This document shows, one piece after another, positions 20,003-24,110 of a stretch of DNA of 35,796 nt. Origin of the DNA: Sulfurimonadaceae bacterium (lineage in GTDB: Bacteria; Campylobacterota; Campylobacteria; Campylobacterales; Sulfurimonadaceae). Both the position numbers and the translations under genes were made by a program. The notes under the pieces are model-generated. The model was not told the origin of the DNA. It saw nothing but the letters and a program-made list of their open reading frames with translations, and made no database searches. The first letter of the stretch is position 1. Each line of letters begins with the position of its first letter. The DNA lies in contig JADGEC010000022.1 in NCBI GenBank assembly GCA_016744575.1, forward strand, positions 1-35,796, given 5' to 3'.

Positions 20003-20508
20003 GACCGTCTGGAAGCACAAGGGCCTTTACTCTGCTTGAGATGCTGATCGCCATTGTGATCTTTACCCTCATCTCTGTTTATCTTTATAAGAGTCTTGCG
20101 ACACTGAACAGCACCAACAGGTTTTATGGCGAGAAACTACGCAGTATCTCTCATGACCATAAGATCCTCAAGACCATCTATCTGGATCTCTCTCTCGCAG
20201 TCATCCGCTCTGTCTTTGTTGTCAGTCAGGATGAGCATTTTGATGTCATATTGATGCAGACAAAAAACTCGGTACATCGAAGGACTATGCCCTATGTCGC
20301 ATATCTGGTACTGGAGAACAAGTTCTACCGCATTGAGTCCTCACAACAGTTGAGCTACCCTTTTAATGAGGATCAGGAGATGATCGTAGACGAACTAGGC
20401 GAGATGGAGCACTTTAGGCTCTATAGCAGTAAGACGCATTTTCTGCTCGATTATGAACCAAAAGACGAAGACCCGCAGTTGATGAAGATACGGGGTCTTA
20501 ACTACTGA
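19999..20508 (+). CDS. gspJ: T2SS minor pseudopilin, GspJ-like
   Basis: 169-residue pseudopilin and last gene of the T2SS operon. The prepilin stretch reads AFTLLEMLIAIVIFTLISV (from residue 9): Glu at +5 is kept, but the residue before the cut is Ala instead of the usual Gly. It is thus processed with an Ala at -1 if at all. The LLEMLIAIVIF pattern is typical of GspJ, a tip-complex subunit with I and K. The last 44 codons are present a second time at 22949-23080, in a broken copy. Confidence 0.8.
   Translation: MRPSGSTRAFTLLEMLIAIVIFTLISVYLYKSLATLNSTNRFYGEKLRSISHDHKILKTIYLDLSLAVIRSVFVVSQDEHFDVILMQTKNSVHRRTMPYVAYLVLENKFYRIESSQQLSYPFNEDQEMIVDELGEMEHFRLYSSKTHFLLDYEPKDEDPQLMKIRGLNY
20375..20506. 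repeat. Direct repeat, copy 1 (3' end of gspJ)
   Basis: 132 bases that recur in the same orientation at 22949-23080 with two differences (C20466 versus T23040, G20475 versus A23049). Weaker similarity continues upstream to about 20332 with the same spacing (offset 2574). The match ends inside the gspJ stop codon (TGA here, TAA in the copy). The repeats flank the PKD lipoprotein gene. Confidence 0.95.
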
Positions 20509-20686: not shown

Positions 20687-22603
20687 TTACTTAATAAGTC
20701 CACTGCTCAAAAGAGCATCTTCTGTCTGCATGATAGTGATCATGTATGGATCACTATCAATAGTCCCATCATTTACTATCAATTCAACTACATAGTCACC
20801 TTTGGAGCTTGTAGCGATATAAGTACTTCCCGCGTCTCCATCAGCTCCATCATATAGCTCCTGAGTACCTACAGGTGATGAGACAAGTCTCCATCTGTAG
20901 GTAAGTTCATCTCCATCAGGGTCATAACTATCGTCAGCATAAAGATATACATTCTCATCAGAGTTGTATACATCAGGTCCAGCATCAGCTATAGGAGGAG
21001 TATTTGTATAAGGATCAGTAACATAGATAGCTAAGCTCTCTGCGTTACTATTAGCAGTTCCATCATTAGCTACGACCTTGATGATATAGTCACCTCCGAC
21101 ATCTGCTGTGAAACTCGTATAAGAAGTGCTTGTCTGGGAAGTCAATGTCGTGAGCTTACTGGCTGCGGGCTTTTTAGTAATCGTCCAAGTGTATTTTAAC
21201 GGGTCGTTATCAGCATCTGAAGCAATGGCTTCAATGTCTGTATCATCGCCTACATAGATATCAGATTTAGTATAAACATATGGATCTACAAATCTTATCT
21301 CTTCCATAACAGGTGCCGAGTTAGTCTTGGAGGCTTTTATCTTCATAGAGTCAGCTGTACTGGAGACACCATGGCTGTCCTTGACAGTCAGCTTGATGAT
21401 ATAGTCGCCTGCTATATCAGGTGTCAGGCCTGCTTTAGAGGATGTCCAGTCTGTGAGATCTGCACTACTTCCCGTGGGCTTGAAAGTGATGAACCAACTG
21501 TAAGTGAGCTTGTCTTCATCGGCATCAGAACTTTTGGTACCATCTAGCGTGACCTTCGTACCTACTTGGATGTTTTTGTCTGCTCCCGCATTAGCTTTAG
21601 GAGCAGAGTTTGAGGTCGATACTGTGACGTTGATCGTATCGGAACTACTATTGACAGTGCCATCATTTACGACAAGAGTCATCCTATAGGTACCATCTTT
21701 ATCAGCAGTAAAAGTAGGTTTGACAGCAGTTGGGTTAGAAAGTGTGGCACTACTACCTCCGGGCTTGGAAGTCATAGTCCAACGAAATGTGATGTCATCT
21801 CCATTGGCATCAGTACTTTTGCTTCCATCAAGTGTGATCTTGGAACCGGTGTTCTTGTTTTGGTCTGATCCTGCTTTGGCAATGGGCTTAGCGTTGGATG
21901 TAGTGGCAGTGATACGTACTTTATCGACACTACTATCAAGGCTTCCATCATTGACGGTCAGTTCGATATCATAGATCCCGTCTTTGTCAGCAGAGAAGGA
22001 TGGAGTAGCACTGGTGGTACTCGTTAGTGAGGCACTGCTACCGTTTGGCTTAGATGCGAGATTCCAACTGTAAGTCAGTCTATCATTGTTGGCATCAGAA
22101 GAGTCACTTCCGTCAAGCGTGACTTTAGTCCCTTTGTTGATGTTCTGGTCAGACCCGGCGTCGGCATTTGGTCTGATATTTCCAGTAGAAGCGATGATGA
22201 CTACGGTATCTGTCTTGGTCTCTTGACCAGAGTTGACAGTCAATAAGACTTCATAGTCACCGTCTAGGTCTGCAGTGAAACGTGGTGCGACTGAAGTCTC
22301 ACCAGCCAAGACAGCGCTACTTCCTCCTGGTGTGGATTTGAATTCCCAATAGTATTCAAGTCTATTATCTGATGCTTGACTTTCACCACCATCAAGGGTG
22401 ACCGAAGAGGGTGTCAGAACGTTCTGGTCTGGACCTGCATCAGCAGTCACACCGACTACTACCTCGACAGGATCAGGAGCAGGGTCATTGGAGTCATCTA
22501 CTGGAGGATTTTCACCGCCGCTGCTGCTTCCGCCGCAACCTGTGAAAGCTAAGAGGAGGGTAAGCAATAAAGCGCTGAAGAGTGATTTTGTCTTGTTCTG
22601 CAT
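20687..22603 (-). CDS. Lipoprotein with about six PKD/Ig-like repeats
   Basis: 638 residues. Lipoprotein signal peptide: hydrophobic core about 9-20 and lipobox FTGC with Cys23, followed by a Gly/Ser- and Pro/Asp-rich spacer (24-46). Then come about six repeats of roughly 90 residues of the PKD/REJ type. Each begins near ADAGxDQN and has TLDGS-S-D-(N/D)-D-L-Y-W, K-PxGSSA-L, P-F-AD-DG-Y-L-V-NDG. The last two (from about residue 425 and 530) are more diverged, with PYVY and TPPIADAGPD starts. Such domains make rigid rods in adhesins and secreted enzymes, and Asp-rich loops suggest calcium binding. No enzyme domain is present. The gene lies between the two gspJ-end repeats and next to the T2SS, which can export folded lipoproteins, so it is a candidate substrate (inference). 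Ribosome site AAGGA precedes the ATG. Confidence 0.85.
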   Translation of the reverse strand: MQNKTKSLFSALLLTLLLAFTGCGGSSSGGENPPVDDSNDPAPDPVEVVVGVTADAGPDQNVLTPSSVTLDGGESQASDNRLEYYWEFKSTPGGSSAVLAGETSVAPRFTADLDGDYEVLLTVNSGQETKTDTVVIIASTGNIRPNADAGSDQNINKGTKVTLDGSDSSDANNDRLTYSWNLASKPNGSSASLTSTTSATPSFSADKDGIYDIELTVNDGSLDSSVDKVRITATTSNAKPIAKAGSDQNKNTGSKITLDGSKSTDANGDDITFRWTMTSKPGGSSATLSNPTAVKPTFTADKDGTYRMTLVVNDGTVNSSSDTINVTVSTSNSAPKANAGADKNIQVGTKVTLDGTKSSDADEDKLTYSWFITFKPTGSSADLTDWTSSKAGLTPDIAGDYIIKLTVKDSHGVSSTADSMKIKASKTNSAPVMEEIRFVDPYVYTKSDIYVGDDTDIEAIASDADNDPLKYTWTITKKPAASKLTTLTSQTSTSYTSFTADVGGDYIIKVVANDGTANSNAESLAIYVTDPYTNTPPIADAGPDVYNSDENVYLYADDSYDPDGDELTYRWRLVSSPVGTQELYDGADGDAGSTYIATSSKGDYVVELIVNDGTIDSDPYMITIMQTEDALLSSGLIK

Positions 22604-22905: not shown

Positions 22906-23083
22906 ATTGAGTCCTCACCGTGTTTTAGTTATTCTTTCAATGAAGACTAGGAGATGATCGTAGACGAACTAGGCGAGATGGAGCACTTTAGGCTCTATAG
23001 CAGTAAGACGCATTTTCTGCTCGATTATGAACCAAAAGATGAAGACCCACAGTTGATGAAGATACGGGGTCTTAACTACTAAA
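22906..23083 (+). pseudogene. Broken second copy of the gspJ 3' end
   Basis: Remnant that aligns with gspJ 20332-20509 without gaps. Its first part translates as IESSPCFSYSFNED followed by TAG, against IESSQQLSYPFNEDQ in gspJ. In that part many changes are transitions that leave the residue unchanged (AGC/AGT, TAC/TAT, TTT/TTC, GAG/GAA, GAT/GAC) and the CAG of gspJ is TAG. From 22949 on it is nearly identical to gspJ up to the stop. There is no pseudopilin N-terminus, so the copy cannot make a working protein. The mosaic pattern suggests an older diverged homolog partly overwritten by, or recombined with, the intact gene. Confidence 0.85.
22949..23080. repeat. Direct repeat, copy 2
   Basis: Partner of 20375-20506 (130 of 132 bases identical, same orientation). 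With copy 1 it brackets the PKD lipoprotein gene and its AT-rich upstream region, about 2.4 kb. Confidence 0.95.
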
Positions 23084-23167: not shown

Positions 23168-23186
23168 GTTACAATGCTTATGTAAC
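23168..23186. promoter_or_regulatory. Dyad upstream of the KCG-repeat peptide gene
   Basis: GTTACA, 7 bases, TGTAAC: perfect 6-bp inverted repeat about 67 bases before the start. Spacing and symmetry would suit a dimeric metal- or stress-responsive repressor, but no regulator gene is near and the match is short. Confidence 0.35.
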
Positions 23187-23252
23187 AAGCATCACAGACA
23201 TCCAGGTCATAAGGATGTTAGAATGTCTGTAAATAAAGAGAAAAAAGGAAGA

Positions 23253-23564
23253 ATGATGAAAAAGATGAACTTGATGGCGCTACTTGTTGGAGCAGCACTC
23301 TTCACAGGTCTTGGAGCTACCTCTGCATTTGCAGCAGACGGTAAATGTGGTGCAGGAAAATGCGGTAGTTCAAAACCTGCCAAGTGCGGTGCCGATAAAG
23401 CTAAAGATATGACCGCTGGCAAGTGCGGTGCTGACAAAGCTAAAGAGATGACTGCAGGAAAATGCGGCGCTGATAAAGCTAAAGAGAAGGCTGCAGGCAA
23501 GTGCGGTGCAGATAAAGCAAAAAAAGCTGTCAAAGGCAAGTGCGGCGCAGGTAAGTGTGGTTGA
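23253..23564 (+). CDS. Secreted KCG-repeat peptide, HvfA-like RiPP precursor candidate
   Basis: 103 residues from ATG 23253. ATG 23256 is better spaced from the GGA at 23247-23249 and may be the true start; the longer frame from 23127 lacks a ribosome site and places an unsuitable stretch before the signal peptide. A clear Sec signal peptide ends at AFA-AD (residues 25-29). The mature part is almost only repeats: eight Lys-Cys-Gly motifs, cysteines at 32, 37, 45, 58, 71, 84, 97 and 102. The five from 45 to 97 are exactly 13 residues apart (unit AGKCGADKAKEMT), and GKCGAGKCG occurs at both ends. Repeat units use different synonymous codons, so the pattern is held by selection. It resembles HvfA/bufferin-type precursors, whose EGKCG motifs are modified to bind copper; here the residue before GKCG is Ala, Asp or Lys rather than Glu. 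Without modification it could be a metal-binding buffer peptide. The DoxX gene follows. Confidence 0.75.
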   Translation: MMKKMNLMALLVGAALFTGLGATSAFAADGKCGAGKCGSSKPAKCGADKAKDMTAGKCGADKAKEMTAGKCGADKAKEKAAGKCGADKAKKAVKGKCGAGKCG

Positions 23565-23568
23565 TCGT

Positions 23569-23590
23569 TCGGGCAGTCTTCACTGCCTGA
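23569..23590 (+). terminator. Hairpin between peptide gene and DoxX gene
   Basis: Stem of 9 pairs (one G-T) with loop CTTC: TCGGGCAGT and ACTGCCTGA. It starts 4 bases after the peptide stop codon and has no T-run behind it. More likely a message-stabilising or partial stop that lets the peptide be made in excess over the DoxX protein, as in many small-peptide operons. It could also be a weak terminator. Confidence 0.5.
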
Positions 23591-23666
23591 TCTGATGGAG
23601 TATCTTTGAATATCTGATTGGGTCTTGAGAGATATTAATATCTATGATATTTACAGGAGGTGTGTT

Positions 23667-24110
23667 ATGTTTGTCAAATGTGAGAAGATCGACGCACTGT
23701 TAAATAAAGGTCAAGACGTCGCTTTACTACTACTGCGATCTATCCTTGCCTATGGGTTTTTCAGTCCGGCTATGCATAAGTGGGATGATATCGGGGCGGT
23801 AGCTGAGTGGTTTGGCTCTATGGGTATTCCGCTTCCTACGCTGAACGCTTATATGGCAGCATCGACTGAACTTGCCGGTGTGGTCTTGTTGACTATCGGT
23901 CTGGCAGTACGCTATATCAGTGTTCCATTGATGTTTGTGATGGTCGTCGCGATCACTACCGTGCATTTGGCTAACGGCTTTAGCGCCGGAGACAATGGTT
24001 TTGAGATCCCGCTTTACTATATGCTGATGCTTTTTGTCCTTGTCACCTTTGGCGGCGGCAGGTTCAGTGTCGATGGCTACTTAGCTAAGAAAAAAGAGAC
24101 AGAAGTCTAA
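23667..24110 (+). CDS. DoxX-family membrane protein
   Basis: 147 residues from the ATG at 23667, which has a perfect AGGAGG ribosome site 6 bases upstream. A longer TTG-start version is unlikely. Four hydrophobic helices are visible (about residues 15-33, 52-75, 79-99 and 108-128). DoxX motifs include LLLLRSILAYGFFSPAMHKW near the start and the later FGGGRFSVDGYL. DoxX-family proteins are small membrane proteins linked to thiol and redox metabolism; in HvfABCD loci one of them (HvfD) accompanies the modified peptide. Following a KCG-repeat peptide makes that role plausible, but DUF692 and DUF2063 partner genes are absent here. Confidence 0.85.
   Translation: MFVKCEKIDALLNKGQDVALLLLRSILAYGFFSPAMHKWDDIGAVAEWFGSMGIPLPTLNAYMAASTELAGVVLLTIGLAVRYISVPLMFVMVVAITTVHLANGFSAGDNGFEIPLYYMLMLFVLVTFGGGRFSVDGYLAKKKETEV

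Follow-up and report, generated by a model that had tools for sequence, protein, structure and literature searches.

The window analyzed here is a stretch of 35,796 nucleotides from a Sulfurimonadaceae bacterium (contig JADGEC010000022.1, assembly GCA_016744575.1), in which a gene for a KCG-repeat peptide is followed by a gene for a DoxX-family membrane protein. The HvfABCX/oxazolin system of Haemophilus, fontiphorin and gonophorin (EGKCG captophorins) share with this locus a Sec-exported (G)KCG-repeat peptide and HvfX in one operon; in contrast to these systems, no MNIO (HvfB) or PME1 (HvfC) was found in the window genome. The question is what such a pair does when its modification genes are missing. 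The first-pass annotation had offered two answers, namely, that the enzymes are encoded elsewhere in the genome, or that the peptide works unmodified.

Gene pair and sequence families

The two genes are on the plus strand, 102 bases apart, with the following features:

23253..23564, plus strand: gene for a KCG-repeat (HvfA-type) exported peptide, 103 aa, 8 KCG motifs (translation, NCBIfam, orthologue in the sister species G397)
23253..23333, plus strand: predicted Sec signal peptide, about residues 1-27, MMKKMNLMALLVGAALFTGLGATSAFA (read from the sequence; strongly conserved in the sister species)
23655..23660, plus strand: AGGAGG ribosome-binding site of HvfX (sequence; conserved in the sister species)
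23667..24110, plus strand: HvfX, DoxX-family inner-membrane protein, 147 aa (NCBIfam, Pfam, confident helical model)

The unit had initially been drawn from 23168 to 24110; both genes proved to be real, but position 23168 is upstream of the coding region, which starts with the peptide at 23253. The translation of 103 residues agrees with the initial reading of a signal peptide followed by eight KCG motifs. The cysteines are at positions 32, 37, 45, 58, 71, 84, 97 and 102; repeat analysis confirmed the exact spacing of 13 residues from Cys 45 to Cys 97 and the GKCGAGKCG motifs at both ends of the repeat region, and identified the 39-nt repeat of the gene as a real DNA periodicity. The synonymous codon differences between repeat units noted at first inspection are also present: there are 23 synonymous and 18 non-synonymous differences, whereas about 21% of random single changes in the repeat codons are expected to be synonymous. 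Since the units differ by synonymous codons, they are not recent copies, and an explanation by concerted copying or a repeat-driven artefact was rejected.

The assignment to an HvfA/HvfX-like unit is upheld by model matches for both proteins. The peptide exceeds the cut-off of the NCBIfam model KCGExKCG_twice (NF050137; 48 bits, cut-off 19.5), and does not reach that of the HvfA equivalog model NF050188 (24.4 bits, cut-off 95). No Pfam family was matched by the peptide at E-values up to 10, and thus the DUF2282 domain of Buf1 was not found. Its structure model, made without an alignment, is disordered (pLDDT 45) and uninformative. HvfX, called “HvfD” in older usage (PMC13419390), exceeds the cut-off of the NCBIfam HvfX model NF050144 (123.4 bits, cut-off 80). 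The match to Pfam DoxX (PF07681; 64.4 bits) and the AGGAGG seven bases 5' of the ATG substantiate the DoxX gene with a perfect ribosome site described earlier. The AlphaFold2 model of HvfX is helical, with a mean pLDDT of 95.9. Twelve residues are invariant in 39 relatives (R24, Y29, K38, W48, Y62, E68, R82, H100, N110, E113, Y117 and Y118), and no cysteine is conserved among them; therefore, HvfX itself is not a dithiol enzyme. Neither the fold search of the model against PDB nor the sequence search of PDB returned anything significant, the plasmid search returned distant DoxX proteins only (best 41% identity), and nothing relevant was found in the literature on DoxX in Sulfurimonas or Sulfurovum.

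As the first-pass annotation had stated, no B (HvfB) or C (HvfC) gene lies beside the pair; in this window, no metal-related gene adjoins it either. Two possible regulatory elements were found:

23194..23230, plus strand: inverted repeat ACAGACATCC...GGATGTTAGAATGTCTGT 5' of the peptide gene (arms conserved in the sister species, loop differs)
23568..23591, plus strand: stem-loop CGGGCAGTCTTCACTGCCTG immediately 3' of the peptide gene, lacking a T run (the stem is kept in the sister species; z -1.61)

The inverted repeat, which folds only weakly better than shuffled sequences (z -1.29), is a possible operator or regulator site, or a hairpin of the 5' UTR, and the stem-loop may set the ratio of peptide to HvfX expression. 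Further upstream, a 175-bp direct repeat (91% identity; 20332-20506 and 22906-23080), which is the 3' end of a pseudopilin gene, flanks the gene of a PKD-domain lipoprotein (20687-22603). The KCG gene of the sister species directly follows the pseudopilin gene (L236), and thus the PKD gene appears to have been inserted in a process that involved duplication.

Purifying selection on the pair

The sister species (G397), the second genome of the genus, is 83% complete and contains no detected MNIO; it keeps the peptide and HvfX beside the same pseudopilin genes. The two peptides are identical at 84 of 102 residues, including all eight cysteines. The dN/dS ratio is 0.127 for the whole peptide, 0.086 for the signal peptide, and 0.055 for the available HvfX fragment. 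In the 24 KCG codons, there are 10 synonymous and no non-synonymous changes; thus, the KCG motifs are under purifying selection. The ribosome sites and the 5' region of the pair are conserved as well. In ten peptide pairs from MNIO-free lineages, dN/dS ranges from 0 to 0.22, and 57 of 58 cysteines are kept.

Modification enzymes and related genes in the same genome

The assembly of 3.59 Mb is a 228-contig draft, scored as 100% complete. It contains no match to the HvfB-type MNIO/DUF692 family (PF05114) and none to HvfC/DUF2063/PME1 (PF09836). It should be noted that PF09836 scores some PME1 proteins of Campylobacteria only weakly, and therefore the DUF2063 negatives are weaker than the MNIO negatives. 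Of the two answers proposed at the outset, enzymes encoded at another site are not supported by these searches of the whole assembly and the unmodified peptide is favored, and the RiPP interpretation, which had been tied to a DUF692 homolog in the genome, loses support.

The genome has a second KCG gene, with its 5' end missing (contig C7; L009, G000:C7, 2-2372), followed by genes for an OmpR-type response regulator, a histidine kinase and an FGE-sulfatase-domain protein; it is related to the lipoprotein-type KCG peptides of Sulfurimonas-type genomes (L066, L070, L243). Two further HvfX genes, on contigs C75 (L060, 4429-6623) and C167 (L061, 5790-7987), have no KCG gene, and each directly precedes a gene for an FMN glutamate-synthase-like protein of about 583 aa with a hydrophobic stretch at the N-terminus. 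This protein is a second recurrent partner of HvfX. Gluconate_2-dh3 and GMC genes of the same genome are on another contig, away from the peptide-HvfX pair.

The enzyme-less pair among relatives

Among 347 genomes of Campylobacteria, HvfX exceeds the cut-off in 51 and MNIO is present in 19, with both in 13; HvfX is found without MNIO in 38 of the 51. A KCG/KC-repeat peptide gene lies less than 1 kb from HvfX in 26 of these 38 MNIO-free genomes (eight genera, six families, many single-contig assemblies), and within 2.5 kb in four more. In the family of the window genome (228 genomes), the corresponding numbers are 107 with HvfX, 16 with MNIO and 13 with both, so that 94 of the 107 genomes have no MNIO. 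Most loci of 80 named relatives (Sulfurovum, Sulfurimonas, Sulfuricurvum, Hydrogenimonas, Nitratifractor, and Bacteroidota or Chlorobiota bins) are likewise peptide-HvfX without MNIO. Thus, in Campylobacteria the enzyme-less peptide-HvfX pair is the rule, and this conservation, which the first-pass annotation had proposed to look for in related Campylobacterota, strengthens the operon idea.

PF05114 had no match in 49 of 50 other genomes with an MNIO-less peptide-HvfX locus; these are bins, so that single absences are weak, and three of them (G037, G186, G332) are also in the class survey. True MNIOs in the same searches gave E-values of about 1e-80 to 1e-96. PF09836 matched nothing in 39 MNIO-free genomes, the model being not fully sensitive for this class, and among the neighbors of the pairs in the surveyed loci there is no recurrent gene for another modification. 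One genome (G348/G583) has an enzyme-less pair and an MNIO elsewhere. An apparent second, stop-containing MNIO in G461 was rejected as a pseudogene relic: the match, which adjoins a KCG gene, is truncated by the end of the contig.

Loci of HvfX without a KCG gene comprise 26 with the FMN protein only and 23 with neither. The order HvfX, Gluconate_2-dh3-like protein, GMC oxidoreductase occurs in four families (L104, L118, L015, L096, L102, L173), here only in enzyme-less loci. In Bacteroidota/Chlorobiota bins with no MNIO in the genome (L181, L184, L193, L203), longer KCG proteins are encoded beside HvfX.

Phylogeny of HvfX and drift of the motif

In a tree built from 140 HvfX proteins, which are short sequences with many unresolved forks, the MNIO label changes 10 times (mean for shuffled labels, 17), and at least four of the changes are forced by strongly supported branches. 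B-C thus came or went several times. The window HvfX lies closest to copies from Sulfuricurvum that are linked to MNIO (72% identity); its locus may represent a fairly recent loss of B-C, which would fit its still strict KCG motifs. The Sulfurovum branch (36 rows of the tree) contains no MNIO at all, and the cysteines of its peptides are followed by Gly in 39% of cases, compared to 94% in MNIO loci. Lys before Cys stays at 94% in this branch, a figure that, unlike that for Gly, is biased because peptide detection required KC motifs. FonBC is known to favor Cys-Gly, and Cys followed by a charged residue is not processed (PMC12668002). In several Sulfurovum loci (L142, L147, L165, L185), KC peptides are encoded on either side of HvfX, and a lipobox-like TGC is often present in the upstream one; genes for a lipoprotein and for a fusion of ferredoxin:thioredoxin-reductase and rhodanese come next.

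Matched loci with and without the enzymes

In two cases, loci with the same neighbors occur with and without the B-C genes. In the first, L132, from a Campylobacterales bin (genome G347) without MNIO, has the order peptide-HvfX-metallo-beta-lactamase, whereas L239 has peptide-MNIO-PME1-HvfX-metallo-beta-lactamase; 64 of 82 residues, including the full set of six cysteines, are common to the two peptides. The second case is the operon of family f7 (Arcobacter-like by content; L271-L276), which encodes a YtkA-like protein, an outer-membrane channel, a CusB-like adaptor, a CusA/CzcA pump (match of 999.6 bits), YceI and a terminal KCG peptide, and adjoins a two-component system. In L275 and L276, MNIO-PME1 follow YceI-KCG. 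In L271, L272 and L274, nothing lies between the KCG gene and the next, opposite gene, and MNIO is missing from the genomes; L273 has a rearranged operon in which YceI-KCG is kept, likewise without MNIO. None of these six Crd/Czc-type loci contains HvfX.

The layout of the f7 operon resembles that of the CrdAB-CzcBA operon of Helicobacter pylori, which exports copper under the control of CrdRS (PMC12319023, PMC9182242), and the HvfA and fontiphorin peptides are copper binders (PMC13419390, PMC12668002). Judged from gene order, this context is the best evidence here that KCG peptides may act in metal handling both with and without modification.

Interpretation and alternative explanations

The explanation that we favor, with slightly better than even confidence, is an HvfA/HvfX-type pair with unmodified cysteines that most likely serves as a periplasmic buffer for Cu(I) or another soft metal, with HvfX as the membrane partner. 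We infer the following steps: (i) the locus would have lost, or never had, HvfB (MNIO) and HvfC (PME1); (ii) Sec would export the peptide, which would act in the periplasm with unmodified cysteines; (iii) the mature peptide, a flexible, Lys-flanked poly-thiol, would bind Cu(I) or another soft metal; and (iv) HvfX would be the inner-membrane partner, which might either anchor the peptide or hold its thiols reduced via the quinone pool. Since the enzyme is missing from this genome, and selection keeps the same reduced form of the system in dozens of relatives, the peptide probably acts without modification. Against the metal reading, the link to copper comes from the loci of relatives and from modified peptides; compared to these, free thiols would bind less strongly or be oxidised more readily.

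More generally, the peptide and HvfX might be a widespread system of two genes that functions autonomously with free thiols, MNIO-PME1 being an optional add-on; we judge the case for this proposal to be evenly balanced. If MNIO-PME1 is an add-on that was repeatedly gained and lost, HvfX would be the functional partner of the peptide rather than a maturation factor; that most genomes with HvfX have no MNIO argues against an exclusive role in RiPP maturation.

An improbable alternative that nevertheless deserves weight is that the peptide carries thiol-redox equivalents or sulfane sulfur (persulfide) instead of buffering metal, with HvfX passing electrons to quinone and flavoproteins as partners. 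The hosts are largely sulfur-associated Campylobacteria, and Gluconate_2-dh3 and GMC genes follow HvfX in 16 of 73 enzyme-less peptide loci versus 0 of 18 MNIO loci (Fisher p 0.035, loci counted regardless of kinship). The FMN glutamate-synthase-like protein follows HvfX in other loci, including two in the window genome, the FTR-rhodanese fusion is found further along many Sulfurovum loci, and DsbD follows in three MNIO loci. Recurrent flavoprotein neighbors thus fit a membrane redox role of HvfX, and a thiol/sulfur function is the main rival. However, HvfX has no conserved cysteine, the window pair adjoins none of these neighbor genes, those in Sulfurovum may reflect plain synteny (mutS2 follows too), and the Arcobacter-type loci indicate heavy-metal efflux.

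We consider it quite improbable that the peptide is still modified, either by an MNIO that the draft assembly failed to capture or by a different class of enzyme encoded elsewhere. The KCG motifs are perfect in the window species and its HvfX is nearest to MNIO-linked copies, so that an enzyme recently lost, or unseen in the 228-contig draft, is a possibility; the pair with a distant MNIO in G348/G583 implies that some species could modify the peptide in trans. Conversely, the assembly without an MNIO match is scored as complete, MNIO is also missing from the second genome of the genus and from many single-contig genomes with the pair, and no alternative modification gene recurs beside the pairs.

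That HvfX and the peptide are functionally unrelated neighbors is very improbable: HvfX often occurs without a KCG gene, and Arcobacter-type KCG genes occur without HvfX, but their adjacency is kept in six families and in some Bacteroidota, where the other neighbors differ. A decaying remnant of an HvfABCX cluster is hardly credible and was rejected, because decay is contradicted by the substitution pattern of both genes, by the conservation of the ribosome sites and the 5' region, and by the existence of large branches without MNIO, such as Sulfurovum, even though the HvfX tree shows B and C to be variably present and lost expression or function has been offered as an explanation for MNIO-free precursors (PMC12452194).

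Relation to known systems and implications

Compared to EGKCG captophorins, the window peptide has A/D/K-GKCG motifs with 13-residue spacing, and 5-thiooxazole is not to be assumed. Since no MNIO enzyme was found, we do not place the pair among the thiooxazole RiPPs; it may well work like them. Bufferins (Buf1 with DUF2282, and Buf2) are likewise exported cysteine peptides, with DoxX in many clusters, and act in copper buffering, whereas the window peptide is of a different sequence family without a Pfam match. DoxX/DoxD, a subunit of thiosulfate:quinone oxidoreductase, shares with HvfX the Pfam DoxX family and the form of a small helical membrane protein; however, the HvfX branch has its own invariant residues, and HvfX is not known to react with thiosulfate. 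Periplasmic metal sponges and thiol-rich metallothionein-like proteins are flexible multi-site metal buffers. PcoE, which is such a buffer (PMC9182242), resembles the proposed working of the peptide without sequence relation, PcoE being Met-rich and the window peptide Cys/Lys/Gly-rich.

Precursors without modification genes in the genome, the same situation as here, have been described: in 67 of 2583 complete genomes, Buf_EGKCG precursors occur without MNIO and, according to the authors, might either not require modification or lack a function (PMC12452194). Thus, the parts (HvfA-type KCG repeats and HvfX) and MNIO-free precursors are already known. What appears to be new is that the enzyme-free pair, rare in that survey, dominates in a bacterial class, retains HvfX, is kept by selection, and comes with matched loci with and without the enzymes.

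KCG-type exported peptides have been studied as thiooxazole RiPPs, in which metal binding depends on MNIO. The large enzyme-free branch shows that selection can keep the peptide and its DoxX partner without MNIO chemistry, which puts in doubt the NCBIfam title “RiPP maturation protein” for HvfX. Natural pairs of loci with and without the enzymes make it possible to ask what is gained by the modification, and the pair is a candidate for a thiol or metal system of the envelope in abundant, sulfur-associated Campylobacteria.
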